A stretch of 64,000 nucleotides of DNA from NCBI GenBank assembly GCA_030525525.1, contig JAUNEN010000002.1, positions 2,357 to 66,356 of the forward strand, given 5' to 3'. This document shows, in pieces, positions 7,627-53,160 of the stretch. The notes under the pieces are model-generated. The model was given only the letters and a program-made list of their open reading frames with translations, was not told the origin of the DNA and searched no databases. The DNA is from Erysipelotrichaceae bacterium. Lineage in GTDB: Bacteria; Bacillota_I; Bacilli_A; Erysipelotrichales; Erysipelotrichaceae. Made by a program: the position numbers and the translations under genes. Numbering within the stretch: the stretch's first letter is position 1; each line of letters starts with the position of its first letter.

Positions 7627-7670
7627 AAAGAAGGGAAGCTGCACTCAACAGCTGCAGCTTCCCTTTCTTT
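7627..7670. terminator. Rho-independent terminator after the esterase gene
   Basis: A long stem (AAGGGAAGCTGCA at about 7631-7643 pairing with TGCAGCTTCCCTT at 7653-7665) with a 9-base loop is flanked by A-rich and T-rich tracts, so it may work in both directions. It begins about 35 bases after the esterase stop codon. Confidence 0.85.
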
Positions 7671-7672
7671 AT

Positions 7673-7694
7673 AAAAAAAGCCGGTTATACCGGC
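7673..7694 (-). terminator. Terminator of the RpiR-family gene
   Basis: On the minus strand, GCCGG/CCGGC (7680-7684 and 7690-7694) with loop TATAA is followed by a T7 tract (7673-7679). It lies directly behind the stop codon of the minus-strand regulator. Confidence 0.8.
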
Positions 7695-7697
7695 GCA

Positions 7698-8489
7698 TCA
7701 GGCATTGCAGATCAGAGCTTTCGGGTCTGTGATCCACTCTTCGGCGGCAGCGATGCACAGCTGCACAAAGAAGAGTTCTGCCGCATTTTTCAGTTCAAGT
7801 CTGTTGACAGGTGCCTTGAAATCAATGACCCGTGTATCAGCCTGTCGGTTCTGATCATCGCTCTGCAGATACAGATGTCTTCCTGCACAGTTGATCAATG
7901 TGGTGCTGATCTGCTGGAAACTGTTGATTGTATAAATCAGTTCGCTGTATTTGATATAAGGAAACAGGAAGATGATCAGATCATCATCGGTGAGGTTTCT
8001 TAACTGCTGATCATATCTTGCGACAGAAGCGGTGATGATATAGCGGTTGGGAATCCTGCGATGCCATAAAAGAGCGGACAGAGAATCAGCGCATTCACGG
8101 AGATTCTTGGGCCCTATAAACAGAATATTGCGGCTGACACTCATCTCATCGACTACCCGCTTCAGGGAATTCGGCGAAACACGTTCGATTCGTCTGGAGG
8201 CGTGGGAAACATATGTTTTATGATCCTGGATGAATCTGGATGCGGAAATCGAATTCATGCCGAGCTCGGTATTCAGAGCTCTTAAAAACAGCGGATATCC
8301 GCCGTTTAAGCGGCTGCGCGAAAAAAACGATGCGGCAGAAGACTTGGGGATATTCAGATGTTTTGCAATGTCATTGATCGAATATTGATTCAGATCATAA
8401 AGATTCAGCAGAATGAATTCACTGACCATATAATCCAGCGATCCTTCCGGTGAGTCTTCGAAAATTTTATAAATGTTTTCCAGTAACAT
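7698..8489 (-). CDS. MurR/RpiR-family transcriptional regulator
   Basis: 263 residues. The N-terminal part (about 1-75) reads as an RpiR-type helix-turn-helix: the SINDIAKHLNIPKSSAASFFSR stretch has the usual spacing of recognition helices. Residues about 110-240 look like a SIS sugar-phosphate-binding domain (NILFIGPKNLRECADSLSALL, then DDLIIFLFPY). Such regulators sense phosphosugars. It is transcribed away from the small lipoprotein gene, and the gap between them holds a 16-bp palindrome that could be its operator. No sugar catabolic genes adjoin it, so the inducer cannot be guessed. The similarity is weaker in the SIS half than in the HTH half. Confidence 0.75.
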   Translation of the reverse strand: MLLENIYKIFEDSPEGSLDYMVSEFILLNLYDLNQYSINDIAKHLNIPKSSAASFFSRSRLNGGYPLFLRALNTELGMNSISASRFIQDHKTYVSHASRRIERVSPNSLKRVVDEMSVSRNILFIGPKNLRECADSLSALLWHRRIPNRYIITASVARYDQQLRNLTDDDLIIFLFPYIKYSELIYTINSFQQISTTLINCAGRHLYLQSDDQNRQADTRVIDFKAPVNRLELKNAAELFFVQLCIAAAEEWITDPKALICNA

Positions 8490-8557
8490 AATCAGGTTTT
8501 ACCCTTCAGATCATTCTGAAGTCATTCTAATTTAGGAAAACAACTTTCTCAATTCAT

Positions 8558-8573
8558 ATGCTTTTAAAAGCAT
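8558..8573. promoter_or_regulatory. 16-bp perfect palindrome, candidate operator
   Basis: ATGCTTTTAAAAGCAT is perfectly self-complementary and lies in the divergent gap between the RpiR-type regulator and the lipoprotein gene. The position fits an operator of the regulator; binding is inference. Confidence 0.45.
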
Positions 8574-8589
8574 TCTGAACACACTGCAG

Positions 8590-8608
8590 TTTTTACGTTC
8601 TGTAAAAA
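8590..8608. promoter_or_regulatory. Inverted repeat TTTTTAC-N5-GTAAAAA
   Basis: Seven-base perfect arms with a five-base spacer, ending 13 bases before the GGAG ribosome binding site of the lipoprotein gene. It could be a second half of a regulatory region or a weak hairpin in the leader. Confidence 0.35.
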
Positions 8609-8631
8609 ATCCGATAGAAATGGAGAAAAGT

Positions 8632-8997
8632 ATGAAACACATGATCAGAAAGTTATTCGGCCTTTGTCTGTCATTCCTCATTGCATTGACACTTGCCGGA
8701 TGTGCACAGGCAGCCAAACCTGCGGACTATCCGGGTGAATACACACTGACCGGAATGAAATATGCCGACGGTCAGGAAATGGAAGACTTCGGAGATCTCG
8801 GCATGGCCGGTAAGATGGTGCTGAATGAAGACGGAACCGGCTATTATGAAGTCTTCGGGGCAAGAAGCGATCTGACTTATGATATTGAAAATAAGATGAT
8901 CGCAAGCAATGGAAATGAATCTGAATTCACATATGAAAAGGATGTGCTTTCCGTTTCGCTGGACGGTACATTCATCTATGAATTCCAGAAGAACTGA
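8632..8997 (+). CDS. Small secreted lipoprotein
   Basis: 121 residues from ATG 8632, chosen because GGAG (8622-8625) lies six bases before it; an in-frame ATG at 8620 has no such site. The N-terminus MKHMIRKLFGLCLSFLIALT ends in the lipobox LAGC, so the mature protein should be lipidated on Cys and held on the outer face of the membrane. The remainder (about 95 residues) has a YTLTGMKYADGQEME segment and short beta-rich stretches such as GTGYYEVFG and LSVSLDGTFIYEF, typical of small lipocalin-like or META-like lipoproteins. No family is recognised with confidence. It is a single-gene unit followed by a terminator. Confidence 0.8.
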   Translation: MKHMIRKLFGLCLSFLIALTLAGCAQAAKPADYPGEYTLTGMKYADGQEMEDFGDLGMAGKMVLNEDGTGYYEVFGARSDLTYDIENKMIASNGNESEFTYEKDVLSVSLDGTFIYEFQKN

Positions 8998-9050
8998 GCG
9001 TGTGAAAAAGACAGTCCCGTAAAAACTGTCAGTCGTATTGAATCATGTGC

Positions 9051-9087
9051 AAAGCAGAACAGAATGACTGTCTGTTTTGCTTTTTTT
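9051..9087 (+). terminator. Terminator after the lipoprotein gene
   Basis: AAAGCAGAACAG (9051-9062) pairs with CTGTTTTGCTTT (9072-9083) with one G-U pair, followed by T residues to 9087. Confidence 0.8.
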
Positions 9088-9187
9088 GGAACCAAATCAA
9101 ACGTGTGAGTCTGCGGGGTGATAATATGCTATCATTCACTTACAGACAGAAAATGACACAATCATCCAAGGGAAGGAGGAATCTGAT

Positions 9188-11473
9188 ATGTGGAAACATT
9201 TTAAACAATCATTGAAAGTCGTGCTGTCGGCAGCGATGCTGGCGGGTGCTTTCATGCCGCTGTATGCGGAAGAAAGCGAAGAGGAAACAATTGAAACTGC
9301 GGTATATCCTGAGGCAGCATATGTTTCGGAAGATGAATACAACATTGAACCGGCTGATGCGTCACTCAATGCGTCTCTTTCAACTGTCACTCTGAATTTC
9401 AGATATCATCAGACAGAAGCCCGCAGCATGCTCGGAATGGTCAATTCACTCCGTACCGGCAATGAAGCGTGGGCATGGGATTCAACAAATACAAACAAGA
9501 TCTGGTACAACAATCTGAGCCCGCTGTATTACGACTACGAACTTGAAAAAGTGGCGATGCAAAGAGCTGCCGAAATCGCTCTGGAGTGGGGACATTACAG
9601 ACCGGACGGATCATATTGCACAACTGCTTATCCGGCTGCCTTCAACAATACCTGGAGAGGTGAATGCATTGCGGCAGGATGGGTCAACAGTGCAGCATCT
9701 GCCTACTACATGTGGGAGGAAAAAGATTACGATTATGCCGGACAGGCACACCGCAGAAACATGCTGTCACCAAATTTCAAGGCAGTCGGAATCGGCTATG
9801 CCGAATACAACGGTACAGGTTTCTGGGTTCAGGAATTTTCATCAGCCTATGTAAACGGCACACCTGTCAATTATGATGAAAACTACAGAGCTGTGAATGT
9901 ACAGATTCCTTCTTCAAGTGCTTATCTTGCGGCAGAATTCAAAGCAAATTCATTAAAGAAAGATCCGAGCATGACCGTTGAAATCGGTTATCCGAAAGAG
10001 ATTCCGGGCGTTGCTGTAGGTCTTTACTATGGCGGCTATTCAAGAAGCTATGCGGCAATCGGTTCAGTGATCAAGAGTTCAAACTCGTCAATTCTGAAAG
10101 TCGAAAACGGAAAGCTCGTTGCTTTGAAGCCGGGAGATGTGACGGTTACATTTGACTACAGCTGCGGCAGCTACAGAGCGTCAAAGCAGTTGAAAGTACA
10201 TACCCGCAAACATGAACATGATTTCAGATTCAAATGGCTGTGGAGCGACGATCTGAGTGAAGCACAGGCCGATTATATATGTACGGTGGATGATGCGCAT
10301 AACGGCAGCGGGGATGCGGTTGTGACATCTGAGACAAAACAGCCGACCTGCCACGAGGAAGGAATGACAACATATACAGCCACCCTCAATATCGAAGGCA
10401 AGAATTATTATGATTACAGATATGTTCTGATTCCGCCGACAGAAGAACATGATTATACAGAACCTGAATTTGATTGGGCAGCTGATTATTCGACCGTGAC
10501 TGCACATGCATATTGTGCAGCCGGCGGGGAAGAAATCAGTGAAACAGTCAATGCGGTATATGAAGTGATTCAGCAACCGACAGAAACTGAAAAAGGAACC
10601 GGCAGATTTACTGCATATTTTGAGAATGATTATTTCGGAACACCGTCTCAGGATGTTGAGATTCCTGCATTGAGTGACAGAACACCGGAAGACTTTACAA
10701 TCAAAGAAAGTTCACTGTATCTGCAGTATGATCAGCAATACAGACTGAACAAAACCTTAAGTCCGGCGAATTCGGACGCAAAGATTTACTGGATTTCTTC
10801 CGACAATGAGGTCGCTTCGGTTGATTCAGAAGGAAAAGTCACTGCACACAGAGCAGGAACTGCCGTAATCAGGGGTTATACATTATACGGACAGGGTGAT
10901 GCATGCAGTGTGACAGTTCTCTTCTCTGATGTAAGTGATACCTCAAGATATTTCTTCAATCCTGTATATTGGGCGGCTGATCAGGGCATTACGGTCGGCC
11001 ATGGCGGCAGAGGAAGATTCTCACCGGATGCGACATGTACAAGAGAGCAGATCGTTACATTCTTATGGAGATTGATGGGTGAACCTGATCCGGTTGTCTG
11101 TCAGTCATTCACGGATGTCAAACCGACAGACTGGTATTTCAAGCCGATTTCATGGGCAGCTGAGAATGGCATCACGGTCGGTCTGAATGACGGAACCGGC
11201 AGATTCGGTATCGGCCAGCCCTGCACCCGTGAGCAATGCGTCACCTTCCTCTACCGTGCAGCAGGAGAACCAGGTTATGACGGATCAGTCCTTTATTGGT
11301 TCCGTGATGTTTACTCCGGCAAGTATTACACTGTTCCGGTCAGATGGGCAGCTGAAAAAGGTATTACACGCGGTCTGAATGACGGAACCAATAGATTCGG
11401 AATCGGTCAGGCATGCACGCGCGCAATGATCGTTACCTTCTTGAAGAGATATGCAGATCTCGATACAGACTGA
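9188..11473 (+). CDS. Secreted CAP-domain protein with Ig-like and three SLH domains
   Basis: 761 residues. Strong site GGAAGGAGG precedes ATG 9188. Signal peptide about 1-27, ending PLYA-EE. Residues about 75-230 form a CAP (SCP/PR-1) domain: GHY around residue 138, GECIAAG, and the hallmark AHRRNMLSPNF followed by VGIGYAEYNGTGFWVQEFS. Residues about 255-340 and 510-575 look like Big_2 Ig folds (EVASVDSEGKVTAHRAGTAV). The middle section (345-500) is beta-rich and histidine-containing and is not assigned. Three SLH domains (575-761) end the protein with WAAENGITVGLNDGTGRFGIG signatures. It should be cell-surface anchored; the biochemical role of bacterial CAP domains is mostly unsettled. A single-gene unit with a shared convergent terminator. 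Confidence 0.85.
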   Translation: MWKHFKQSLKVVLSAAMLAGAFMPLYAEESEEETIETAVYPEAAYVSEDEYNIEPADASLNASLSTVTLNFRYHQTEARSMLGMVNSLRTGNEAWAWDSTNTNKIWYNNLSPLYYDYELEKVAMQRAAEIALEWGHYRPDGSYCTTAYPAAFNNTWRGECIAAGWVNSAASAYYMWEEKDYDYAGQAHRRNMLSPNFKAVGIGYAEYNGTGFWVQEFSSAYVNGTPVNYDENYRAVNVQIPSSSAYLAAEFKANSLKKDPSMTVEIGYPKEIPGVAVGLYYGGYSRSYAAIGSVIKSSNSSILKVENGKLVALKPGDVTVTFDYSCGSYRASKQLKVHTRKHEHDFRFKWLWSDDLSEAQADYICTVDDAHNGSGDAVVTSETKQPTCHEEGMTTYTATLNIEGKNYYDYRYVLIPPTEEHDYTEPEFDWAADYSTVTAHAYCAAGGEEISETVNAVYEVIQQPTETEKGTGRFTAYFENDYFGTPSQDVEIPALSDRTPEDFTIKESSLYLQYDQQYRLNKTLSPANSDAKIYWISSDNEVASVDSEGKVTAHRAGTAVIRGYTLYGQGDACSVTVLFSDVSDTSRYFFNPVYWAADQGITVGHGGRGRFSPDATCTREQIVTFLWRLMGEPDPVVCQSFTDVKPTDWYFKPISWAAENGITVGLNDGTGRFGIGQPCTREQCVTFLYRAAGEPGYDGSVLYWFRDVYSGKYYTVPVRWAAEKGITRGLNDGTNRFGIGQACTRAMIVTFLKRYADLDTD

Positions 11474-20783: not shown

Positions 20784-23700
20784 ATGAAAAAGATAATATT
20801 TGCAGTCAAAGGCATTTTGAAGTGCCTCCTTTCGGTGTTTCTGACAGTCAGTGTACTGACACCCGTATTTGCGGCAGGACATCCGAAACCAATTATCACA
20901 GCCTCTGAACCGGATGTTTATATCAGGATCGGAGAGTCAAAGCAATTGACATATCATGCCATGCCGGATGAATATGACTGGCCGGTTACGTGGAGTGTGC
21001 TCAGTGATCCTTCTGATACAGTAAAGGTAGATGAAAACGGCGTTGTCAGCAATACTCTGAGACCGACACATGCAGTGATCAAATCGGCAGTTCCCGGCGG
21101 GGAGTATGCTCTTTATCACATCTATGTCTATGAAGATGCCAATCAGCTGAATGCTTCACAGACACGGATTTATATGAACCGAAATGAAACAAGAAGGGTA
21201 TTGCTGAATGCGGTACCTGCCGGAGGCATTTTTGCGCCGAAGACAGCATCAGCAGGTGATCCGGATCTTGTATCAGTCAACTCAGGTACATTCGGTGGTG
21301 AATATCTTGAATTGAACTCAATGAACAAGACAGGACAGACTGATGTAATTGTCAGAACAGACAAAGGAATTTATGCGGTGCTGAGTGTTTATGTCACAGA
21401 TGATGTGATTGCATCTTCCATGAGCTCAGGTCTTGGGAAGAATGTATATCTGAAGCCTTCTAAGAGCACAACTCTTAATTACTCACTTTATCCATCCAAT
21501 GCAACGGATGAGGTTTCGTATGATCTGATCTATGATTCCAATCAATGCATCTCACTGCTGGAAGAGGATGGGACATTATGGGCATCAAAGAACTGCGGTC
21601 AGGCAAGAGCGATTGCTCAGGGATACAGGACATCATATGACTGGAATATCTTTGTTGCAGAAGATCCGGCATCACTCAGTGTCAACGATGTGACAGTACC
21701 TCTCTATGAAACAGTATGGGTGCCTTTCAATGTTTCACCTTCAAATGCACTCTTCTGTAAAAAGACAATTGAAAATTCATATATGGAAGTCTGCACGGTC
21801 AATGACAATGTGAGTGAAACCGGTATGAACGGTGTTTATATTTACGGCGCGGCAGAAGGAACGGTTCCTGTTTATGTAACGACAGATAACGGAATAACCG
21901 CATCATTTACAGTCACAGTTAAAGATATCAAAGCAGACTATATTTCAAGCGATCAGACTGATCTGACTCTTGAACTCGGTGACAGTATGACGCTTCCTTA
22001 TACACTCAGTCCTTCGGATGCGACAGAAATTCCTACAATCGGGATTGAAGATAATCCGGATGTTGTGGAGATTGATTATTTTGCCGGTCTGATTACCGGG
22101 AAAACCCAGGGTACAGCCGAGCTTTATATGGATATTTCAAGCGGTGACAGACAGTATTACAGAATCCATGTATTTGAAGATCCGTACTACATTGCCTTTG
22201 AGCAGGAAAGCTATGAATTTGAAAGTCAGACAGATGCAGAGCTGACACTCATCACAGAACCGGCAGGCGGCGCATACGGTCATTTCACAGTTACATCAAG
22301 CAATGATGAGATTGTTGAAGCGGAAACAGATCAATATGGTGCTATCAAAATCAGAACATGGGGAAGAGGAACTGCCGTACTGACAGCCAGAGCAGATAAC
22401 GGTTTGACATGTTCGACTGAAATCACAGTCACAAAACCCGGAGCTGAAAATATCTTCAATAATGATGATGATCCGGTTCGCATGAAGCCAAACTCAAATC
22501 ATCAGCTGAGTTATTACCTGCAGCCTGTATTGGCAGATGAAATGCCTGTCTTTGAAGTAGTTAACGGTGAAGCTCTCTTCAAGGTTGATGAGATGGGTTT
22601 AGTGACTTCATTTGATCAATGCGGCACAGGTGTGATTTCTGCATCCATTGAAAACGGAAAGAAGATTTATTACAACATCAATGTGGAAGAAGATGCAGAA
22701 GGTCTTGATTTTGATCAGGGTTTCTACCGGTTTGAGCTTGATTCGCACTTTGATTTCACACATCATCTGCTCTTCTCGCCATATGGTGCATATTATGGCG
22801 AATATACATTAACAAGCAGTGATCCTTCCGTTTTAAAAGTGATACAGATGAGCGGAAGAGCTTATATCGAAGCTCTGAAGACAGGTACTGTTACATTGAC
22901 ATTGAGTGCAGAAAACATTTCTAAATCAGTCAATGCGACAGTTCTCAGCGGCTATGCTTCGGAAGTGACTTCATCCGATCCCCGGATCATTCATATCACC
23001 AAAGGAAAGACAAGATATCTTGATGCGTCTGTTTCAAATTCTGAGGGCAATACGAACCGGGACAGACTGAGATGGTTTGTGACAAAAGGAAACGATCTTG
23101 TTGAAATCGATGATATGGGGATGCTGGAAACGAAGGAATACGGAATCGCAGAAGTTGAAGCGAGAACAGAACTCTTCGGGAATGAAGTCAATGATCAGGG
23201 ATACAGATACAGAAGAAGCTTTGAAATCAGAGTGACGGAAGAGCCGGTCAGTTTGGCCTTCCCTGAAGAATCATATACACTTCCTCTGCACGCAAACGGT
23301 CAGCTATGCGCATATGCGGACAGACCGGAAGCGGATTATTATCACAGAATCTATCAATCCAGTGACAATTCAATTCTGTCGATTGATGAAAGAGGATGGT
23401 ATAACGCGCGAAAGACAGGCACGGTCAATGTGACCTGTACAGCTGACAACGGCGTCAGTGTCACCGTACCGGTCACTGTCACAAATGGAGATTATCCATA
23501 TCTCTATGCTCTCAGGGATTACAGTCTTCGCTATCTCTATGAAGGGGAGAGTGTCAATCTCAATGAATTGATCATACGGGAAGACGGGAAACCGATGACA
23601 GAGGCGGATTATAACGGACTGGAGTGGAGATCCATGGATCCGTCAGTTATTTCAATTGATAACGGTGTGCTCAAAGCAACGAAATCAGGTCTTGCCGAGA

Positions 23701-25469
23701 TTACATTGACATCAAAGGATTCACTGACGCTGCACACCTATCTGCAATTGATTGTCACAAAGCCGGAAACATCCGTTCATTTTAAGAAAGCTGAATACAA
23801 TCTTCTGGCAGGAAAAGAGATGAATCTTCTTTCTGAATTTGAGACTGAACCTTCTGATACAGTTCTCAAGGATGTGACATTTACTTCATCCGATCCAAAG
23901 ATTGCATCATTAGCCCGTAATGGGAATCAATGGCATCTTTATGCAAACAGATCAGGCACCGTAACAATCAAAGCGGAAACAGATTCAGGCCATCAGGCAG
24001 AGATGAAGCTGAATGTGGGAAAGAGGGAAACCGTAACTGAAATGGATCTTTCCGAAAGCACGGTCAGTCTGCATGTCAATTACCGGTACGCACCGGACTT
24101 TGTATCGATGAATCCGGTCTTCACTGACAGCACAAGATACACGATGACTTCATCCGATCCGTCTGTCGCAAGAGTGATTTATATACCGTACAGCGAATAC
24201 GGACAGGAAATTCTTGGTGTATCGGAAGGCAGTGCGACAATCACCGTGAGAGCAAATGAAGATCCGACTTTATTGTCAAAGACATTTACGGTCAATGTGA
24301 CAAAGGGTGATTCTGATCATTATCAGTTTGCTGAAACGCTGATTGCTCTGGAAGGAAAGACACATCATTATGCCGCATATGCCTCAAATCAGGATGTTTA
24401 TACCGTTTATACCGGTAAGGATTATTTGTTAAGCGCCTGGGGTCTCTGGATCCCTCAGAGAGGTGTTGAACATCCGGGAGAAATCGTCAATCCGACACTT
24501 GCTTATCATGATCCGGATCATTGCATCAGTGAACTTGTGTTAACGCATGGCGTACCTCTGATGAATACTGAATTTGAAGAATACCATGGTTCTCTGTCGT
24601 TTACTGCACTTCGCAAAGGCACATTTACAGTGAATACCATTGGAAACAGAACAGTCACATTCAATGTCATCGATGAACCGGAAACCATTCTTCCTTCCTC
24701 AATCGCAATTGAAGGCGAAGCAGAAGTTGAATACGGAAAAACAGTGAAACTGAATGCGATTGTGAAGCCGGATGAAGCAGAAAACAAATCTGTCACATGG
24801 ATAAGTCTTGACCCTGAGATTGTTTCCGTTGATCAGGACGGAACAGTTCATGGTTTAAGCATTGGTACAGGCAAAGTAAGAGCCGAAACAGTCAACGGCC
24901 TTACGGCTGAGTGTGAAGTGAGAGTTCTCTTCAACGATGCGGCAGATGACGGGAAGTATTTCTTTGAACCGGTCTATTGGGCAGCGGATCATCAGATCAC
25001 GGTCGGCCATGGCGGAGCCGGGAAGTTCTCACCTGATGCATCATGTACAAGAGAACAGATTGTCACATTCTTATGGAGACTGATGGGTGAACCGCAGGCA
25101 GAAAGCCATCCGGAATTTACAGATGTGAAAGAAACAGACTGGTATTATGAACCGATCTCATGGGCAGCATCAAAAGGAATTACATTAGGCCTGAATGACG
25201 GTACCGGCAGATTCGGTGTCGGCCAGCCATGTACGCGTGAGCAATGTGTTACATTCCTCTACAGAACAGCTGAACAGCCGGAAGTCGGCGAACATGAAGA
25301 GTTTACAGATGTGGCGGCAGGAAGATATTTCTATGACTCCATCTCATGGGCAGCATCAAAAGGAATAACATTAGGCTTAAATGACGGCACCGGAAGGTTC
25401 GGAGTCGGCCGGAAGTGCACACGTGCCATGATTGTCACATTCCTCTATAGATTTACTCATACTGATTGA
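20784..25469 (+). CDS. Giant secreted Ig-like (Big_2) repeat protein with three SLH domains
   Basis: 1561 residues. AGGAGG precedes ATG 20784. Signal peptide about 1-31 (ends TPVFAAG). Residues about 40-1380 are a string of bacterial Ig-like domains of Big_2 type, recognisable by repeated blocks such as SSDPSVARVIY, SSDQTDLTLELGDS, GTAVLTARADNGLTCST and a final clear copy ETVNGLTAECEVRVLF. Three SLH domains (about 1385-1561) close the protein with GLNDGTGRFGVG twice. No catalytic domain was seen, so it is probably a surface stalk or adhesin held by its SLH domains. The Ig units differ strongly from one another, unlike the esterase gene, so there is no recent repeat expansion here. A single-gene transcription unit. 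Confidence 0.85.
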   Translation: MKKIIFAVKGILKCLLSVFLTVSVLTPVFAAGHPKPIITASEPDVYIRIGESKQLTYHAMPDEYDWPVTWSVLSDPSDTVKVDENGVVSNTLRPTHAVIKSAVPGGEYALYHIYVYEDANQLNASQTRIYMNRNETRRVLLNAVPAGGIFAPKTASAGDPDLVSVNSGTFGGEYLELNSMNKTGQTDVIVRTDKGIYAVLSVYVTDDVIASSMSSGLGKNVYLKPSKSTTLNYSLYPSNATDEVSYDLIYDSNQCISLLEEDGTLWASKNCGQARAIAQGYRTSYDWNIFVAEDPASLSVNDVTVPLYETVWVPFNVSPSNALFCKKTIENSYMEVCTVNDNVSETGMNGVYIYGAAEGTVPVYVTTDNGITASFTVTVKDIKADYISSDQTDLTLELGDSMTLPYTLSPSDATEIPTIGIEDNPDVVEIDYFAGLITGKTQGTAELYMDISSGDRQYYRIHVFEDPYYIAFEQESYEFESQTDAELTLITEPAGGAYGHFTVTSSNDEIVEAETDQYGAIKIRTWGRGTAVLTARADNGLTCSTEITVTKPGAENIFNNDDDPVRMKPNSNHQLSYYLQPVLADEMPVFEVVNGEALFKVDEMGLVTSFDQCGTGVISASIENGKKIYYNINVEEDAEGLDFDQGFYRFELDSHFDFTHHLLFSPYGAYYGEYTLTSSDPSVLKVIQMSGRAYIEALKTGTVTLTLSAENISKSVNATVLSGYASEVTSSDPRIIHITKGKTRYLDASVSNSEGNTNRDRLRWFVTKGNDLVEIDDMGMLETKEYGIAEVEARTELFGNEVNDQGYRYRRSFEIRVTEEPVSLAFPEESYTLPLHANGQLCAYADRPEADYYHRIYQSSDNSILSIDERGWYNARKTGTVNVTCTADNGVSVTVPVTVTNGDYPYLYALRDYSLRYLYEGESVNLNELIIREDGKPMTEADYNGLEWRSMDPSVISIDNGVLKATKSGLAEITLTSKDSLTLHTYLQLIVTKPETSVHFKKAEYNLLAGKEMNLLSEFETEPSDTVLKDVTFTSSDPKIASLARNGNQWHLYANRSGTVTIKAETDSGHQAEMKLNVGKRETVTEMDLSESTVSLHVNYRYAPDFVSMNPVFTDSTRYTMTSSDPSVARVIYIPYSEYGQEILGVSEGSATITVRANEDPTLLSKTFTVNVTKGDSDHYQFAETLIALEGKTHHYAAYASNQDVYTVYTGKDYLLSAWGLWIPQRGVEHPGEIVNPTLAYHDPDHCISELVLTHGVPLMNTEFEEYHGSLSFTALRKGTFTVNTIGNRTVTFNVIDEPETILPSSIAIEGEAEVEYGKTVKLNAIVKPDEAENKSVTWISLDPEIVSVDQDGTVHGLSIGTGKVRAETVNGLTAECEVRVLFNDAADDGKYFFEPVYWAADHQITVGHGGAGKFSPDASCTREQIVTFLWRLMGEPQAESHPEFTDVKETDWYYEPISWAASKGITLGLNDGTGRFGVGQPCTREQCVTFLYRTAEQPEVGEHEEFTDVAAGRYFYDSISWAASKGITLGLNDGTGRFGVGRKCTRAMIVTFLYRFTHTD

Positions 25470-25842: not shown

Positions 25843-26000
25843 AATATAAAATCATCAGTTAAAAATATAAAGTTAGAGATTGAAAATATAAAATTATTTT
25901 GCTAAATATAAAATATAAGAAGAAATATATAAACAAAATATTTAAAATATAAAATATATATCAAATTATATAAATTGAATTTGCAAAATATAAAAGTCTG
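25843..26000 (+). repeat. Helically phased array of eight (A/T)ATATAAA boxes
   Basis: AATATAAA or TATATAAA boxes begin at 25843, 25864, 25885, 25905, 25926, 25946, 25967 and 25987. The spacings are 21, 21, 20, 21, 20, 21 and 20 bases, on average 20.6, or two turns of B-DNA. Six boxes are AATATAAA and two are TATATAAA; the sequence between boxes is AT-rich but not conserved. The last box ends about 18 bases before the start codon of the AlbA_2 gene. It reads as an operator or iteron-like array with all sites on one face of the helix. Confidence 0.85.
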
Positions 26001-26012
26001 AAGGCGGTGTAT

Positions 26013-27455
26013 ATGACAAAGGAAGAACTCATTGATGTCCTGAATGAAATTCAAAGGAACAGATGTGAAACCGGAACTCTCGAATTAAAGGCAGCAGAAA
26101 CAGGATGCCCGAAACGGTTATATGATACTTTATCAAGTTTTTCGAATCAGGATGACGGAGGGATAATTGTTTTCGGTGTTGATGAAACCAGAAATTATCT
26201 TGAATGCGGGGTTTATGATCCGCAGGATATCCAGAAGAAAATCAATGAACAATGTTTGCAGATGTCACCGATTGTCAGGCCGCTTCTGACAGTAGTTGAA
26301 AAAGAAAACAAATTCTTCATTGCGGCAGAGATACCTGCAATTGATATTTCAGAAAGACCTTGTTATTACATGGGAAAGGGAATGGTAAAGGGCTCTTATG
26401 TCAGAGTTGGTGACAGTGATGAACCTATGACTGAATACGAGATTTACAGCTATGAAGCATTCAGAAAAAAATATCAGGATGATATACGGATTGTGCAGAG
26501 AGCAGCTTATTCAGTACTTGATCAAACTCTTTTAGAAACTTATCTGCTTAAATTGAAATCAGAAAAACCGAATCTGAGCAGTCTTCCCGATGAAAACATT
26601 CGTGAGCTGATGAGTATTACCGCAGACGGTAAAGTCACATTAAGTTCTTTGATGTTGTTCAGTCGTTATCCACAGGCTTTTTTTCCTCAGCTCTGCATCA
26701 CGGCAGTGTCAGTGGCCGGTGACGAGATCGGTGAGATCGGCGAGTCCGGGGAGCGGTTTATTGACAACAGAAGAATTGAGGGTAATATCCCGCAGATGCT
26801 GGATGAAGCTTTGATATTTGTTCGGAAAAATATGAAAATTAAAACGGTCATTAGTCCAAAAACCGGAAAGAGAGAAGATATTCCGGAGTATCCTCTTACT
26901 GCAGTACGTGAAATACTATTGAATGCACTTGTGCACAGAGACTACAGCATACATACAGAAGGAATGCCGATTCAGATTAGAATGCTTCAGAACAGGATAG
27001 AAATTCAGAATCCGGGCGGGATCTACGGACGCCTGAGAATTGATCAGCTGGGCAAAGCGCAGCCTGATACGAGGAATCCGGTGATTGCGACAGTGCTGGA
27101 AGTCATGGGGCTGACTGAAAACAGATACTCCGGAATTCCGACGATCCGCAGAGTAATGAAGGAATATCATCTTCCTGATCCTGTATTTACGGATGAAAGA
27201 GGATCGTTCATGGTGACTCTGTATAACAGCAAAGAAGAAAATCTGGATGTATATAATAATGATCTTCTTCGCTTTCTTGAAACGCCGAGAACCCGTCGGG
27301 AAATCGCAGATTTTCTGAAAGTCAGAACAACAGGTTATGCAATACAAAAATATATTGATCCGTTAATCAAGAAAGGAATTGTTGTATACACAATTCCTGA
27401 AAAACCCAAAAGCTCTGATCAACGATATGTTTTAAAGAACGGTACAGGTTATTGA
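26013..27455 (+). CDS. AlbA_2 (Schlafen-type) ATP-binding protein with C-terminal winged helix
   Basis: 480 residues from ATG 26013; GGCGG lies six to seven bases before it, while the in-frame GTG at 26007 overlaps that site. Residues about 12-130 form an AlbA_2/Schlafen domain (TGTLELKAAETGCPKRLYDTL, NQDDGGIIVFGVDE, KGSYVRVGDSDEPMT). Residues about 285-400 match the HATPase_c_4 ATP-binding module (AVREILLNALVHRDYS, RIEIQNPGGIYG, ENRYSGIPTIRRVMKEY). The last 65 residues look like a winged helix (TPRTRREIADFLKVRTTGYAIQ). Proteins of this layout are annotated as putative transcriptional regulators; some relatives occur in defence loci. The phased box array ends at its ribosome binding site, so autoregulation through the winged helix is an attractive inference. 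Its gene stands alone. Confidence 0.85.
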   Translation: MTKEELIDVLNEIQRNRCETGTLELKAAETGCPKRLYDTLSSFSNQDDGGIIVFGVDETRNYLECGVYDPQDIQKKINEQCLQMSPIVRPLLTVVEKENKFFIAAEIPAIDISERPCYYMGKGMVKGSYVRVGDSDEPMTEYEIYSYEAFRKKYQDDIRIVQRAAYSVLDQTLLETYLLKLKSEKPNLSSLPDENIRELMSITADGKVTLSSLMLFSRYPQAFFPQLCITAVSVAGDEIGEIGESGERFIDNRRIEGNIPQMLDEALIFVRKNMKIKTVISPKTGKREDIPEYPLTAVREILLNALVHRDYSIHTEGMPIQIRMLQNRIEIQNPGGIYGRLRIDQLGKAQPDTRNPVIATVLEVMGLTENRYSGIPTIRRVMKEYHLPDPVFTDERGSFMVTLYNSKEENLDVYNNDLLRFLETPRTRREIADFLKVRTTGYAIQKYIDPLIKKGIVVYTIPEKPKSSDQRYVLKNGTGY

Positions 27456-29572: not shown

Positions 29573-32500
29573 ATGAAGTTTATTTTCAAATGGATCATGT
29601 GTCTGATGCTTGCGCTCAGCACAATCACAGCCCGGTTGATTCCTGCGGAAGCGGAAACAATCGGTTCCGGGAAATGCGGAGAGAATGCAGAATGGGTACT
29701 GACTGACGACGGAATACTGACTGTTTCCGGTGAAGGCAGTATGTATTCCTATGATGCTTCGGCCGAAGAAAGCCCGTTTACATGGGATCGTGAAAGCATT
29801 GAAGGGATTATCATTGAGTCCGGCATTACAAGTGTCGGATATGCAGCTTTCAGCAATTCCGCCAATTTGAAACAGGTGATGCTTTCAGATTCAGTCACAT
29901 TGATTGAAGCGGATGCATTCGCAGGATGCGATTCCATACAGACTGTCTTCTATGAAGGAGGCGAGGCTGAATGGAATGCAGTCACAATTGAAAGCGGCAA
30001 TGATGCTCTGCAAAATGCTGAACTTGTCTGTGATTTCAGTTTTGATGATCAGCCAAGAGGCATCGTCATGCCTTCCGAAATCAGCGTGCCCGTAAATCAT
30101 CAGGTAACACTTCCGGCATATATCGTGCCTGAAGGCGCTGAGCAGTCGATGACTTTCACGAGTGAAAATCCGGAAGTTGCAGTGATTGAGCGCGGCGGTG
30201 TGATCCGCGGTCTTGCGGCCGGTGTTATTAAAATCACTGCTGAAACAGCCAATGGTGTGAGTGCTGAATGTGAACTGACAGTACAGTTCAATGATGTCTC
30301 TGATGAAACAAGATTCTTCTATGAACCGGTATACTGGGCATTGAAGAATGCAGTTACGACAGGTACCAGCAAAATCGCATTCTCACCTGATATGAATGTG
30401 ACAAGAGGTCAGATTGCAGCATTCCTTTACAGAACAGCAGGTGAACCCGAAGTCAGCGGAGAAATGCCGTTCAAGGATGTCAAAGCAGACAGATATTTCT
30501 ATCAGGCGGTTCTCTGGGCAGTTCAGAATAATATTACAACCGGCACATCTCCGACTGAGTTCCAGCCGGATGCCAAATGCACCAGAGCTCAGATTGTTAC
30601 TTTCTTATGGAGATATCTCGGTGAACCGAACGGTTATGAGCCTGCCGCATTTGAAGATATGAGAGCAGATGCCTATTATCTTGATGCAGTCGCATGGGCT
30701 TCAAATACGGGTGTCACAACCGGCACATCCCCGACGAAATTCTCTCCTGATAACTCATGTACCAGAGGTCAGGCGGTTACCTTCCTGCACAGAGCGGCAG
30801 CTGACAGAATTGACAATGATTCTGACGGACTTCCTGATGAACTGGAAGATTTGTTTGAAACAGATCCGCAGGTTGATGATTCAGACGGAGATGGATTGAG
30901 TGATCTTGAAGAAGTCAGGTATACCGGCACAGACCCTGCCCTTTATGATACAGACGGCAACGGAGTCAATGACGGCGATGAAGATTTCGACGGTGACGGA
31001 ATCTCGAATCTTGAAGAAGTCAGAAACGGTACTGATCCTCTCAAGGCTGATACAGACGGAGACGGTCTCGGTGACAATGAAGAAGGTGACTACGGAACAG
31101 ATCCGACACTGCCTGATACGGATGATGACGGCATGCCTGATGGTGATGAAGTGGGCTTTGGCCTTGATCCTCTGAATCCGAGCACAGACGGTGAAAATCC
31201 TGATGATGAAAGAACATTTGAACAGACTCTTAACGAGGGATGCGTGGAAGGAACACTGTATGAAGACAATCTTCTGATTCCTTCAGTCAGCGGAAATGTT
31301 CCGGGCAATATCGATAATCATGTTTCTGTTGATGAAGCTGATATCTATGCACTTGTGGACAACCGTGCTTCTGTCGGCAAAGCAGTCAGAATCAATACAG
31401 ATTATGCAGAAGATACAGATCTGAACCTGACATTCGGTCTGAGCGAAGATGATGCCAGAAATGATTTCTATATGATCTGCAGCTATGAAGACGGTGAAGT
31501 TGTTCCATGCGATACCGTACAGGAAGGCAATACAATCAGCACAGCTGTTACAAACGGTGAATATTTCGTTGTTGATGCTGAAAAACTTCTGATTGATCTT
31601 GGCATTCCGATCAAGAAATACAGAGATCCTGAAGCAGTTGCGGCGATGAATGAAGCACTGAATGAACCGGTCATTGTTCCGGAAGCACCATCCAACGATG
31701 TGCCTGCTGAATGGTATGAAGAGAATTATGTCATTGTGGATGCACAAGGCAATCCTGTTGAAGCAGAACTGACACAGGCAGAAGAGACAGCTGAAGAAGC
31801 ATCTGAAGCACTCAGCATACTGGAAAGACCTCTGAATGAAGGCGAACATCTTGTCCTGAAAGACAGTCTTAATCAGACACCTGCAGAGGTACATGAAGCA
31901 GGCGAAGGCAGAATTGCCGGTCAGGCAGATATCGTGTTTGTTATTGATACAACCGGTTCAATGTCCGGTGCGATCAGCAATGTTGTATCAAACATTGACA
32001 GCTTTGTGGATACACTCAGCACTGAGTATTCAGTCAATGCGAATTTCGCTCTGATCGATTACAAAGATATTACATGTACCGGTGAGCAGACCATTCTTGT
32101 CAGCGGTGATTCAGGTGCGTGGTTCAGTGATGTTTCCGAATTCAAGTCAAAGATCAGCAGCCTTGTTGTTACAGGCGGCGGGGACGGACCTGAGACACCG
32201 ATCGATGCACTGGCAATGGCACATGAACTTGACTTCAGACAGAATGCGAATAAGTTCATCATCCTTGTAACAGATGCGGATTACAAAACAAATAATAACT
32301 ACGGCATCGGCTCAATGGATGAAATGACTGATCTTCTTGAACGTTCGGGAATTGTGACATCTGTTATTTCATCAACCAGCTATGAAGGCATCTACCACAA
32401 CCTTTATACGGAAACCGGCGGTGTGTTCGGTGACATTTACGGCAACTTCCAGTCTGTGCTGCTGCAACTGGCAGATAATATCGGTGAGATTGTCAATGAC

Positions 32501-34228
32501 GGTTCATGGGTATTGCTCAGTGATTATCAGTTTATCAAACTGGATCAGCCGCTTGATGACTCCGGATACAGTTCCGATGAGGATGGTATCAGCGATGCTG
32601 ATGAGCTTGGTGATGAAACAGAAAAGGATGTCATGCCATATATTTCATGGGTATTGAAGCATTACAATATACCGGATGATATGTATGAGGATACATCGAC
32701 CGTAAAAGTATACAAATACATTTCAAATCCTGTGCTTCCGGATACTGACTTTGACGGTATCAACGATGATGAAGAGTCTGCTGATCTTGTGAATCACAAT
32801 ACATTCTTCGCAAATGAAAAGTATTCGACAGGCGGTACATCTTACAATACATTTGCCATATTTAAAATGGATTACAGACAGTTCTTCTACAATCCTTCAA
32901 CATTCAAACAGGAGCTTGCAGTCCTGGCGAGTCTCTTCGCTCTGGATATGTATGATGACGGCTGGATTGAAATGAACTATGGCGCATCCGGATCATCCAA
33001 AGCAGAAAACGGCAAGTCATTCGGTGAAATATTCGGAATGCAGGACGGAAAGGTGATCAAAGACTGGCAGCTGAGAGATACTTACGCGCAGAAGGACAGC
33101 AGCGGCAATAAAGTTGATCAGGATGATGTGTCTGAGGTCTATTTCGGTCACAGACCTGTTGAATATAAGAACGAGAAGCGTGAAATCTTCTTCATGATGG
33201 TCCGCGGTACAAACGGAACAAGTGCTGAGTGGTCAAGTAACTTTGATGTCGGTTCAGACACCAGTGAGTACTATTGGGAGACCGGCGAACATCCTGACTG
33301 GAAAGATAAGGCAAATCATAAAGGATTCGATGTTGCAACAAACAGAATTCTGGCGGCATTCAATGATTATGTTTCAAATCTTGAAGCTAGCGGCGAGATT
33401 GATGTCAACGCAAGAAGAAGTATCTTTATTTCCGGACATTCACGCGGTGCTGCAATCGCCAATCTGCTCGGCGCATATTTTGAAGACAGATCGGATTATC
33501 AGTCATATGTTTATACGATGGCTGCGCCGTATTCAACGACACATTCTGATGCGCAGAACTATAAGACTATCTTTAATATCATGAATACAGACGATCTGGT
33601 TCCTTATCTGCCTTTGGAAACATGGGGATTCAGAAAATACGGAAAGACATTGAAGATCAGTGCAGGTGTCTATGAAGACCATATGCCGATCGGCGATGCA
33701 GTGGATACGTTTGAATTCATGTTCGGGCGTGACTATGATTCCAACGCATGGCGCGGTACGGCAGTCAGCAGTTTTGAAAAGATGGTTGATTCGCGGAATA
33801 AAATTCATATTCTTGATACAACTTCCGGAGACGGTGAAGTTATTGAAGGCAGTGTGGTTTATTTCGATGACTCTCATTACTATGACTGTCTCAGACTTTT
33901 GCACGGCGGAAAGCTGTACAAATACTGTCACATCAAGAAGGATGTGAATTTCTGGACCTGGCCGGGTTACAATATTAAAATCACTTACGCACCTGCTTAT
34001 GCAATGCAGATTGTTGCAAACCTGGCTTCAAGTCCGGAAGGCTACGGCCAGATGGACTGGATGGGTGTGGACCTGAAAGGAAAATATTCAGCGGCAAGAA
34101 GAGATTTCGCACTTGCAAGCGGCAAGATTCCGATGGTCGGATGGATCCCCGGAGGAATGGAATCACCGCATGTACCGGCAACTTATTATATGATTACAAA
34201 GCTCACGGATTACAGCAGCTACAATTAA
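29573..34228 (+). CDS. Surface protein with SLH, calcium-repeat, VWA and class 3 lipase domains
   Basis: 1551 residues. AAAGGGG precedes ATG 29573. Signal peptide about 1-28. Order: GENAEWVLTDDGILTVSG entry module and a short BspA-like LRR (30-165); Big_2 (168-245); three SLH domains (245-415, ending in TTGTSPTKFSPD rather than the GLNDGTGRFG type); thrombospondin-type-3/dockerin-like calcium repeats (DSDGDGLSDLEEV, DTDGNGVNDGDEDFDGDG; 417-540); VWA domain (about 783-970) with an intact MIDAS start DTTGSMSG; more calcium repeats (DFDGINDDEES); and a class 3 lipase domain (about 1170-1500) with GHSRGAAIANLLG and the probable acid in NTDDLVPYLP. It should be a cell-anchored lipase or esterase with metal-dependent adhesion; substrate unknown. 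The next gene follows 12 bases on. Confidence 0.85.
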   Translation: MKFIFKWIMCLMLALSTITARLIPAEAETIGSGKCGENAEWVLTDDGILTVSGEGSMYSYDASAEESPFTWDRESIEGIIIESGITSVGYAAFSNSANLKQVMLSDSVTLIEADAFAGCDSIQTVFYEGGEAEWNAVTIESGNDALQNAELVCDFSFDDQPRGIVMPSEISVPVNHQVTLPAYIVPEGAEQSMTFTSENPEVAVIERGGVIRGLAAGVIKITAETANGVSAECELTVQFNDVSDETRFFYEPVYWALKNAVTTGTSKIAFSPDMNVTRGQIAAFLYRTAGEPEVSGEMPFKDVKADRYFYQAVLWAVQNNITTGTSPTEFQPDAKCTRAQIVTFLWRYLGEPNGYEPAAFEDMRADAYYLDAVAWASNTGVTTGTSPTKFSPDNSCTRGQAVTFLHRAAADRIDNDSDGLPDELEDLFETDPQVDDSDGDGLSDLEEVRYTGTDPALYDTDGNGVNDGDEDFDGDGISNLEEVRNGTDPLKADTDGDGLGDNEEGDYGTDPTLPDTDDDGMPDGDEVGFGLDPLNPSTDGENPDDERTFEQTLNEGCVEGTLYEDNLLIPSVSGNVPGNIDNHVSVDEADIYALVDNRASVGKAVRINTDYAEDTDLNLTFGLSEDDARNDFYMICSYEDGEVVPCDTVQEGNTISTAVTNGEYFVVDAEKLLIDLGIPIKKYRDPEAVAAMNEALNEPVIVPEAPSNDVPAEWYEENYVIVDAQGNPVEAELTQAEETAEEASEALSILERPLNEGEHLVLKDSLNQTPAEVHEAGEGRIAGQADIVFVIDTTGSMSGAISNVVSNIDSFVDTLSTEYSVNANFALIDYKDITCTGEQTILVSGDSGAWFSDVSEFKSKISSLVVTGGGDGPETPIDALAMAHELDFRQNANKFIILVTDADYKTNNNYGIGSMDEMTDLLERSGIVTSVISSTSYEGIYHNLYTETGGVFGDIYGNFQSVLLQLADNIGEIVNDGSWVLLSDYQFIKLDQPLDDSGYSSDEDGISDADELGDETEKDVMPYISWVLKHYNIPDDMYEDTSTVKVYKYISNPVLPDTDFDGINDDEESADLVNHNTFFANEKYSTGGTSYNTFAIFKMDYRQFFYNPSTFKQELAVLASLFALDMYDDGWIEMNYGASGSSKAENGKSFGEIFGMQDGKVIKDWQLRDTYAQKDSSGNKVDQDDVSEVYFGHRPVEYKNEKREIFFMMVRGTNGTSAEWSSNFDVGSDTSEYYWETGEHPDWKDKANHKGFDVATNRILAAFNDYVSNLEASGEIDVNARRSIFISGHSRGAAIANLLGAYFEDRSDYQSYVYTMAAPYSTTHSDAQNYKTIFNIMNTDDLVPYLPLETWGFRKYGKTLKISAGVYEDHMPIGDAVDTFEFMFGRDYDSNAWRGTAVSSFEKMVDSRNKIHILDTTSGDGEVIEGSVVYFDDSHYYDCLRLLHGGKLYKYCHIKKDVNFWTWPGYNIKITYAPAYAMQIVANLASSPEGYGQMDWMGVDLKGKYSAARRDFALASGKIPMVGWIPGGMESPHVPATYYMITKLTDYSSYN

Positions 34229-44722: not shown

Positions 44723-45176
44723 TGGCTGTTTCCCCAAAATATTTGTATAAGAAATGGCAAAGGTGTGGAGATTACAAAAGGCTTTTTACGTTTATAGACA
44801 TGATTGAGAGATTATTAGGAATAATTGTATTTTTGACATTTTATTCATTTACATAATTTGCCAGATTTACACAGAACAATTATGATTAACAATAGTTTAT
44901 TTATCATTTGATAAACTAAATTTTCCTATGCAACTCATAAAATCGGATGGAGAACCAGGAAGCATGAAAAGCTTATAATGCAAACAGTCGTTAAATGCGA
45001 ATCTTGTGATTTGCATATACAATGATACTTTTTGCAGGAGATTACTGCGCGTGTGGCAGTTAATGCTTATTCTTATTAAGTCAACAAAGACTAGCAGTTT
45101 ATTTACGAGTCATTTGCAATACAAATTAGGAAGTTTTGAATAGCTTTCACAAAGATGAATAAGGAGAAAAACATAG
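44723..45176. other. AT-rich gap with a palindrome before the LicD gene
   Basis: 454 bases without a gene. TAGTTTAT (44893-44900) and ATAAACTA (44911-44918) form a perfect 8-bp stem with a ten-base loop, possibly a terminator since AAATTTT follows. AAGGAGAAAAAC at 45161-45172 is the ribosome binding region of the next gene. The gap marks the start of the more AT-rich part of the locus. Confidence 0.4.
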
Positions 45177-46055
45177 ATGAGTGTTAAGGATAATTCCTGT
45201 GGAATTGCTGATCTTCAGGATAAAATGTTGGATATACTGAAATACTTTATTTCTGTATGTGAAAAGCACGATCTTCATTATTGGCTTGCTGGCGGAACAT
45301 GCTTAGGTGCACTGCGGCATGGTGGGTTTATTCCTTGGGATGACGATCTTGATGTGTATATGCCTCGAAATGATTACGAAAAGCTTTGGAAACTTATGGG
45401 CAACGGCAAAGTCGATGATCATTTTAAACTTTGTCGTACAACAGACAAACAAAATTATCATCACCGTGTTATGCAGATCGTTGATCTGAATACAACTTTC
45501 ATCCACAGTCGTAGTAAAAATGAGGATATTGAACACGGAATTTATATTGATATTATTCCAATAGATGCATGTCCAAATAATATGCTCCAAAGGTTTTCTC
45601 AATTTTATAATGCAGTCATATTCTCAATCTGTAATATACAGCAGAAGCCAGAATATAACGGTGGTAAGTTAACAGGGGTGATGAGTTTTGGCACAAGTGT
45701 ATTACTTGGCATTATCAGAAATCAGGATAAGCGTTATAAGGCGTGGTCTAAAGCTGAAAAACGTATGATTAAGTATGATTGGGATAAGTGCTCTCATATA
45801 AAATGCATTACTTCGCAGTTTCATGAATTAATGACAGCATTTCCAAAAGAGTGGTTTGGAGAGCGCAAAATTCCTTTTGAAGATATTGAGGCTGTGGTTC
45901 CAAGTAATGCTGAAGCCTATTGCCAAGCAATGTATGGGGATTATATGGCTTTACCTCCAAAAGAGAAACAAGTGGTAAGACATCATACAGAATATATTAA
46001 TCTCAATGAACCGTATACAAAGTTCAAAGGGATTTATTACTGTGTTAAAGACTAA
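45177..46055 (+). CDS. LicD-family phosphotransferase (copy 1)
   Basis: 292 residues; AAGGAG precedes ATG 45177. The LicD core is clear near residues 38-75: WLAGGTCLGALRHGGFIPWD followed by DDLDVYMPRNDYEKL, with the acidic triad DDDLD, and GIYIDIIPIDACP further on. LicD proteins transfer phosphocholine, ribitol phosphate or glycerol phosphate from CDP-linked donors to sugars. Since the only CDP-alcohol enzyme nearby is the GpsA-TagD fusion, CDP-glycerol is the likely donor (inference). A second LicD gene, about 30% alike by eye, lies at 52094. Confidence 0.85.
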   Translation: MSVKDNSCGIADLQDKMLDILKYFISVCEKHDLHYWLAGGTCLGALRHGGFIPWDDDLDVYMPRNDYEKLWKLMGNGKVDDHFKLCRTTDKQNYHHRVMQIVDLNTTFIHSRSKNEDIEHGIYIDIIPIDACPNNMLQRFSQFYNAVIFSICNIQQKPEYNGGKLTGVMSFGTSVLLGIIRNQDKRYKAWSKAEKRMIKYDWDKCSHIKCITSQFHELMTAFPKEWFGERKIPFEDIEAVVPSNAEAYCQAMYGDYMALPPKEKQVVRHHTEYINLNEPYTKFKGIYYCVKD

Positions 46056-46075
46056 ATTGTGAGGAGACCGGTGTC

Positions 46076-47044
46076 ATGAACGAATATGATATTTCAGTTA
46101 TTATCCCAGTTTATAATGCCGGGAGCTTTTTGAGTGAATGTGTTGATTCTATTTTGAATCAAACCAAAGATAAGATCGAAATAGTTATTGTTAATGATGG
46201 TTCTACAGATGAGTCCGCAAGTATTATTGAGCATTATGCTGCAGAGTATCCAAATATAAAAGCAATTACTCAGAAAAACAGCGGAGTGGAAAAAGCCAGA
46301 GCTGTAGGCTATCAAAACGCCAAGGGTAAATATATAGGCTGGATAGATGCCGATGATATTGCAAAACCAGAAATGTTTGAAACGCTTTATGCTTTGGCGC
46401 TTACAGAGAATGCTGACTTTGTATATTGCGACTATGAGTTCTTTCCTCAAAAAGTAGCCACAAAATCAAAGTGGTTTAAAGAATATAAAGGTGTCATTGA
46501 CGGAGATTTTATCGACCGTAATACACAATGTTGGAATACTCTTGTAAAACGAGAACTTTATGAGAGGGTTCATATTGATAATCTTCTCATGGAATTCAGT
46601 GAATATTGCTGGATTTCTGCAATGATTGCAGCAGAAAAAATAGCATATACTAATGAACAACTTTATTGTTATAGAGTTGGCCATAGTAGCATAAGTGGTG
46701 GTGAATTTATTGGCCGTGTTCCGTATTACCAAAAAGGTGTACGTATTACGAAAAATTTAAAAAAGTTAATTGCTAATACGCCATACGAGGAAAAACTGGA
46801 TACATATTTTGATTATCGATATATCTACACATTGTTATTACTTCTCCTTGTAGCAGCAAAGAATAGTGATAAAACTGCTTACGAAGAAACAAGAAAAGAA
46901 CTTAAGAGAATGAACTATCTCAAGAACCCGTATTTAGATAGATTTGTAGCTAACAATTATGGAAAGCTGAAAGCATGGGTGATAACTCGTATTGTTCCAA
47001 TAAGCTTTTTGATTGCAAATCCATTAGTAAGGATTGCAATGTAA
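46076..47044 (+). CDS. Glycosyltransferase family 2
   Basis: 322 residues; GAGGAG precedes ATG 46076. The GT-A fold is plain: SVIIPVYNAGSFLSECVDSI, LNQTKDKIEIVIVNDGSTD, and the metal-binding GWIDADDI near residue 92. The rest is helical with a slightly hydrophobic C-terminus. It adds one sugar to the undecaprenyl-linked repeat unit on the cytoplasmic side; donor and acceptor cannot be told. It is 20 bases after LicD copy 1 and 10 bases before the next glycosyltransferase. Confidence 0.85.
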   Translation: MNEYDISVIIPVYNAGSFLSECVDSILNQTKDKIEIVIVNDGSTDESASIIEHYAAEYPNIKAITQKNSGVEKARAVGYQNAKGKYIGWIDADDIAKPEMFETLYALALTENADFVYCDYEFFPQKVATKSKWFKEYKGVIDGDFIDRNTQCWNTLVKRELYERVHIDNLLMEFSEYCWISAMIAAEKIAYTNEQLYCYRVGHSSISGGEFIGRVPYYQKGVRITKNLKKLIANTPYEEKLDTYFDYRYIYTLLLLLLVAAKNSDKTAYEETRKELKRMNYLKNPYLDRFVANNYGKLKAWVITRIVPISFLIANPLVRIAM

Positions 47045-47054
47045 TGAGGGATTT

Positions 47055-48353: not shown

Positions 48354-48385
48354 AGCAAAAAATCCAAAGGAGTTGTACATATAGA

Positions 48386-50729: not shown

Positions 50730-50765
50730 ATGTAATTGAAGAATAAAAATAAGAAGGAAAAAGAT

Positions 50766-52067: not shown

Positions 52068-52093
52068 TGAACTCGATAATTGGAGGGCTCAGT

Positions 52094-52936: not shown

Positions 52937-53160
52937 CTTGCCGTCATAGAAAAAAACAGCAGTGGAGTAAATTTTAGCTATAGGCAGATTATATCTTCGG
53001 TTATAAACATAGTTTTAAAGGTCGTTTCGTTATAAATACAAAAGCAGTTCTACTAATGATACTGTGAAATCAGTAATATTTAAGTCTGCAAGAAAAAGAT
53101 CAGCGCATTGGTCGTAAAAGAAATTCAGCAGTTTTGCACGAAATAAAAGTGGGTTTTTAT

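Follow-up and report, generated by a model that had tools for sequence, protein, structure and literature searches.

Why eight copies of a short box stand at nearly regular intervals in front of a single gene is the question raised by this locus, which lies within a 64,000-nt stretch of an Erysipelotrichaceae bacterium contig (JAUNEN010000002.1; hereafter, the window). The boxes, direct repeats of (A/T)ATATAAA on the coding (+) strand, begin at 25843, 25864, 25885, 25905, 25926, 25946, 25967, and 25987, and all eight matched exactly the positions given in an earlier note on this DNA. Boxes 1 to 4 (25843..25850, 25864..25871, 25885..25892, and 25905..25912), box 6 (25946..25953), and box 8 (25987..25994) read AATATAAA, and boxes 5 (25926..25933) and 7 (25967..25974) read TATATAAA. 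The array as a whole (25843..25994) was likewise flagged by TRF. The note had described an alternating spacing of 21 and 20 bp; the mean of 20.6 bp held, but the alternation was not strict, the steps being 21, 21, 20, 21, 20, 21, and 20 bp. A ribosome binding site read directly from the sequence (GAAGGCGG, 26000..26007, + strand) begins a few bases beyond the last box, as expected from the note's statement that the array stops there.

Dinucleotide-preserving shuffles of the same 160 bp contained 0-6 boxes each, and a 20/21-bp chain of more than three boxes arose in 0 of 20,000 shuffles, compared with the eight observed; the equal chains in shuffled DNA that would have spoken against the note's proposal were not found. 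Within the host's own 3.5-Mb genome, the pattern ATATAAA-N11-15-ATATAAA occurred seven times inside the array and twice elsewhere as isolated pairs, and no second chain of this kind was present. Scans for Rfam families and tRNAs detected neither within the window.

The gene behind the array (26013..27455, + strand) encodes a 480-aa protein that joins a Schlafen (AlbA_2) domain, a GHKL ATPase domain, and a winged helix. Its translation start is probably the ATG at 26013 rather than the in-frame GTG at 26007, because the orthologues begin with MT.EEL. Pfam located the SLFN_AlbA_2 domain at 26067..26432 (E=9.7e-13), the HATPase_c_4 domain at 26961..27221 (E=3.6e-25), and a C-terminal Fic-like_C winged helix at 27243..27437 (E=1.7e-8), all on the + strand. 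A structure model with a mean pLDDT of 83 and a pTM of 0.54, in which the domains are therefore reliable and their packing is not, contained a Schlafen lobe, a GHKL fold, and a three-helix winged helix. The last of these comprised residues 411-475 (helices 411-421, 428-434, and 440-453, followed by the wing), which confirms the C-terminal winged helix that the note had read from the sequence. The helix at residues 440-453 (27330..27371, + strand) is the recognition helix of the model, and it is the part of the protein that varies with the box. In two relatives (L049 and L050, from G382 and G424), the linker preceding the winged helix contains SDTQ repeats (DTQSDTQSDTQ), presumably encoded by short tandem repeats.

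Fold comparison matched the Schlafen lobe to SLFN13 (5yd0; Z 10.1, rmsd 3.0, 112 residues), the GHKL domain to SpoIIAB (Z 9.4) and also to histidine kinases, and the winged helix to the C-terminal domain of a Fic protein (4rgl; Z 8.9, rmsd 2.9, 69 residues). The SAMD9 tRNase domain was matched as well (9o0d; Z 9.3), and a match to 3lmm spanned two domains (Z 22.4, 347 residues); 3lmm and 2kyy are solved relatives among the bacterial Schlafen proteins. Two glutamates and an aspartate make SLFN13 a ribonuclease (PMC5862951), and the same acidic residues are relevant in SAMD9L (PMC11221667). Among the relatives (482-aa numbering), E21 and E26 were each present in 36 of 37 and D59 in 31 of 37, D59 being equated with SLFN13 D248 by motif and not by superposed residues; the E-x4-E spacing of E21 and E26 is that of SLFN13 E205 and E210. 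K28 of the same domain and the N-box asparagine N306 of HATPase_c_4 were invariant (37/37 each). Because the ribonuclease E, E, and D residues of SLFN13 are conserved among the relatives, the window protein is probably an RNase. PADLOC returned only cross-matches to Argonaute-associated models.

The earlier note had proposed to look for periodic TATAAA boxes upstream of orthologues. When the DNA in front of the gene was read in gene orientation for 41 relatives (40-66% identical), such arrays were almost absent, because each lineage has a box of its own: most of the 41 regions carried an array at the same place, and the box differed in almost every lineage (ATCCGGAT, TTGCCAAAC, TTGCTCTAA, ATCGTTAATTC, AGTGTTGAT). 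The appropriate test among orthologues is the periodicity of any box, not of TATAAA. AGTGTTGAT occurred nine times about 21 bp apart at L053, TTGCTCTAA-type boxes thirteen times at 10 and 21 bp at L057, ATCCGGAT-type boxes fifteen times at L038, and GTGTCGCAGTAAT five times at 11 bp at L050; the boxes of L016, L044, L031, and L037 were TTGCCAAAC, TTGGCAAAC, ATCGTTAATTC, and AATATCGATATT, respectively. The boxes are non-palindromic and lie on the coding strand. The closest orthologues (L026 and L027, ~65% identical) had arrays that were weak or not recognisable. Whole-genome searches for pairs of three of the boxes returned hits at the Schlafen gene only, apart from the two isolated ATATAAA pairs.

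A box-agnostic chain score across the 41 upstream regions had its top peak at 20/21 bp (mean chain 2.85 vs. 1.55 in shuffles) and side peaks at 10/11, 30/31, and 41/42 bp, with background levels between them, whereas 359 control regions upstream of other genes in the same loci gave a flat profile without a peak. Chains of at least four were found in 10 of the 41 orthologue regions and in 0 of the 359 controls. Since an unconstrained motif search misplaces registers in very AT-rich loci, a phase-constrained search was used as a complement: in-phase placement outscored a five-base shift in 34 of 40 loci (Wilcoxon p 4e-7), and 25 of the 40 exceeded both their own out-of-phase score and all 8 shuffles (~4 expected), with about 15 of the 40 not significant on their own. 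Motif positions from the unconstrained search, pooled over 19 loci, gave a best period of 10.4 bp with a power of 4.65 (maximum in 500 random placements, 2.29). Neighbouring spacings of up to 45 bp in these 19 loci fell within about one base of whole turns in 98 of 126 cases; one, two, three, and four turns are mixed, two being preferred. All four loci that were fetched after the tests had been fixed contained phased repeats at 20/21 bp. Boxes at multiples of 10.4 bp lie on one face of the helix, and the note's suggestion of selection for sites on one face gains firm support from these figures and from the empty controls.

The box was also found to vary with the recognition helix. In partial Mantel tests controlled for core identity, box and helix were correlated at 0.30 (p 0.0015) with boxes curated by eye, at 0.25 (p 0.0005) in a repeat with fully automatic boxes, and at 0.15 (p 0.01) in a 7-mer version, while the partial correlation of box with core given the helix was about 0. 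The correlations are modest because the box comparison is crude. The helices KSRYTTM (from the same genus) and KSRFYTM (from another family) pair with CTTGCCAAACT and CTTGGCAAACT, and the protein cores concerned are only 53% identical. Two loci fetched later had the boxes expected from their helices: L143 (KSKNY, ATCGTTCAA) resembles L031 (KSKNY, ATCGTT[AC]A), and L117 (MSQFYTMSHIVQP, TTGGCAAA) resembles L044 (KSRFYTMSEIVQP, CTTGGCAAAC). A counter-example is provided by L011 and L014, the recognition helices of which are near-identical and the boxes of which look different. This co-variation supports a reading of the boxes by the winged helix of the encoded protein itself; the note had proposed that protein, or a partner, as the one that coats the array.

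The gene is accessory: it was found in 8 of 70 genomes at the level of the genus, in 23 of 273 at that of the family, and in 13 of 395 sampled at that of the class. Array-bearing relatives (40-66% identical) were found in other genera, other families, and phage records; a viral scan yielded 21 loci with an alignment query and none with a single protein query. No conserved neighbour gene was found around the relatives, and the array-bearing genes form a solitary accessory subfamily. Of thirteen more distant homologues, which are often members of restriction operons, only one (L097) has an array, so the phased array is not general to AlbA_2 proteins. In the exception (Mycoplasmopsis arginini, NZ_LR215046.1), four copies of TAGTGACA spaced 11 bp apart precede the gene at 1486, which encodes a 25% identical homologue and lies ahead of a type I restriction subunit; their presence suggests that phased arrays may have arisen more widely.

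Several further loci are recorded here as observations in their own right. In L117 (2880-4197; IMG/VR 2738541339), a six-copy TTGGCAAA array with a spacing of ~21 bp leads into a Schlafen gene missing its first ~76 codons, i.e., the gene is broken and the array intact. L080 (G516 C2, ~7660-9430) and L090 (G784 C7, ~7750-9560) carry a same-box TTGCTCTAA array on both sides of the gene, and the Schlafen unit adjoins the same lipoprotein gene in both species but on opposite sides of it, as if a cassette had moved. A comparison with empty sites did not place the cassette borders, the flanking DNA being too diverged. In the Streptococcus satellite phage Javan593 (L103), three tandem units of ~80 bp (TTAACTGGAAACTGCTTGTAAGC...) precede a Schlafen homologue at 1504. 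The window gene itself is flanked by genes for two very large surface proteins (20784-25469 and 29573-34228; Big_2, SLH, VWA, LRR, and lipase domains), with a small cluster downstream that includes a GxGKST kinase-like protein, PqqD, and an S24/S26-like peptidase. The G+C content of positions 45000-54000 of the window is ~32-37%, compared with ~43% nearby, and this segment is a probable mobile island.

On the basis of these data, we consider it likely that the array is a cognate, self-specific, phased operator through which an accessory Schlafen gene, probably with an anti-phage role, controls its own expression; cooperative repression is the most likely mode. Protein molecules would sit next to one another on the boxes, each bound by its C-terminal winged helix and held head to tail by contacts with its neighbours; with such contacts, occupancy would be cooperative and switch-like. 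The bound protein would most likely repress its own gene and thereby keep a potentially toxic, probably RNA-cleaving Schlafen effector at a low level until released by the state of the ATPase or by a phage signal; what the ATPase contributes and which signal brings about release are both guesses. Array and gene may move between genomes together as a self-regulating cassette, in which drift or selection for orthogonality would rewrite box and helix together. Box and helix would make up a private, fast-evolving DNA code, and it is most likely through this code that the gene reads and controls itself.

The sign of regulation was considered from predicted promoters. Where good promoters could be predicted, the array ended at the -35 element or covered it, a position just upstream of or across the promoter that allows repression or activation. 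In L016, L029, L030, and L031, boxes overlap the predicted -35 element or sit between -35 and -10. The most likely outcome of binding is repression, since the array reaches or crosses the promoter and, in the window, continues as far as the ribosome binding site, an arrangement suggestive of occlusion. In five other loci (L044, L053, L046, L045, and L058), the position of the last box fits autoactivation as well: the box ends shortly before the -35 element, its centre lies ~41-44 bp upstream of the predicted transcription start, where class II activators sit, and further boxes follow upstream in phase. The array could then be an upstream activating sequence through which the protein activates its own promoter, with positive feedback and all-or-none induction; given the boxes on or downstream of -35 in the former four loci and the occlusion expected in the window, we regard this alternative as rather unlikely, though worth keeping in mind.

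The array may instead be a scaffold or sink, and not, or not only, an operator, on which an inactive or primed Schlafen-ATPase filament forms until stripping by phage or host frees the active RNase. The arrays of up to 13-15 boxes (L057 and L038) are longer than a simple operator needs, and in genus g110 the gene is closely followed by a second array of the same box, at a distance from the promoter. Across the loci, however, clear downstream arrays were confined to this genus; nearly everywhere the array precedes the gene and is close to the promoter, so we find this reading improbable. A bolder version, to which we give little more credence, is a built-in tripwire: the Schlafen protein would form a phased, ATP-gated filament on the array and be inactive while bound; a phage that strips or copies the array would both derepress the gene and release active RNase, and the fast-changing pair of box and helix would keep the cassettes orthogonal.

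The remaining explanations fit the data far less well than the phased operator does. An iteron- or centromere-like site for replication or partition of a mobile element, with the gene encoding its DNA-binding partner, is suggested by the ~20-bp direct repeats, the helical phasing, and the winged-helix readers that are typical of plasmid iterons (PMC4980987). Yet the loci are chromosomal and share no replication or partition neighbours, nor indeed any conserved neighbour; the protein has Schlafen and GHKL domains and no Rep domains, and no Rep initiator lies beside the repeats, which makes such a site very unlikely. Intrinsically bent or easily melted AT-rich promoter DNA, acting without a dedicated reader protein, would suit the window boxes, which are AT-only and in phase with the helix, but is largely refuted by orthologous same-phase boxes without A-tracts (ATCCGGAT, TTGCCAAAC, GTGTCGCAG, TTGCTCTAA) and by the co-variation of box and recognition helix; we give it hardly any weight. 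Equally far-fetched is an ordinary minisatellite produced by slippage: the spacers of L053, L038, and L044 are partly conserved, as after recent tandem duplication, but spacers are mostly unrelated where box and phase are kept, the spacings mix one to four turns, and many lineages use the same position with unrelated boxes when the controls have none.

A self-regulating phased operator would offer a lead on the control of solitary bacterial Schlafen genes, which are newly reported to act against phages. The loci form a natural series: more than 20 orthologous proteins and, all in the same place, more than a dozen DNA boxes matched to them. With this series, two questions can be put directly to the test: how the DNA word of a winged helix can change without loss of the gene's function, and whether one protein can be both an effector and its own regulator, acting cooperatively. 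For annotation, phased repeats upstream of such a Schlafen gene may serve to predict the binding site from sequence alone.

Among known systems, the three-domain make-up is that of the bacterial Schlafen proteins (AlbA_2, minimal histidine kinase/GHKL, and wHTH; COG2865-like), which are reported to be anti-phage; within these, the array-bearing genes stand apart as a solitary subfamily. A 2026 paper (PMC12839542) reports proteins of this Schlafen-kinase-wHTH type in the surroundings of BREX loci and refers to a preprint on bacterial Schlafens defending against phage. No description of an operator array for bacterial Schlafen genes was found in the full-text literature searched. Phased direct-repeat sites and the protein family are already known; what appears to be new, relative to that literature, is an array private to one gene, the box of which changes from orthologue to orthologue along with the winged helix fused to a Schlafen effector. 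Plasmid iterons are ~20-bp direct repeats read by a winged-helix Rep, with cooperativity lost upon half-turn separation, according to the review PMC4980987. The present arrays share the ~20-bp direct repeats and probably also the reading by a winged helix; unlike iterons, they have no Rep domain in the partner protein, their boxes are shorter than the spacing, the sequence between boxes is free to vary, and one orthologue differs from the next in its box. Fic proteins with a C-terminal winged helix (Fic-like_C, 4rgl) are alike in that domain and differ in their effector domains. BrxR of BREX, the C proteins that control restriction systems, and phage immunity repressors are regulators encoded beside their own operators, with specificities that diversify between relatives. 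These are, however, small stand-alone regulators that have one or a few operators, mostly inverted repeats, whereas in the present genes the presumed effector carries the DNA-binding domain itself, which has as many as 15 direct repeats before it.
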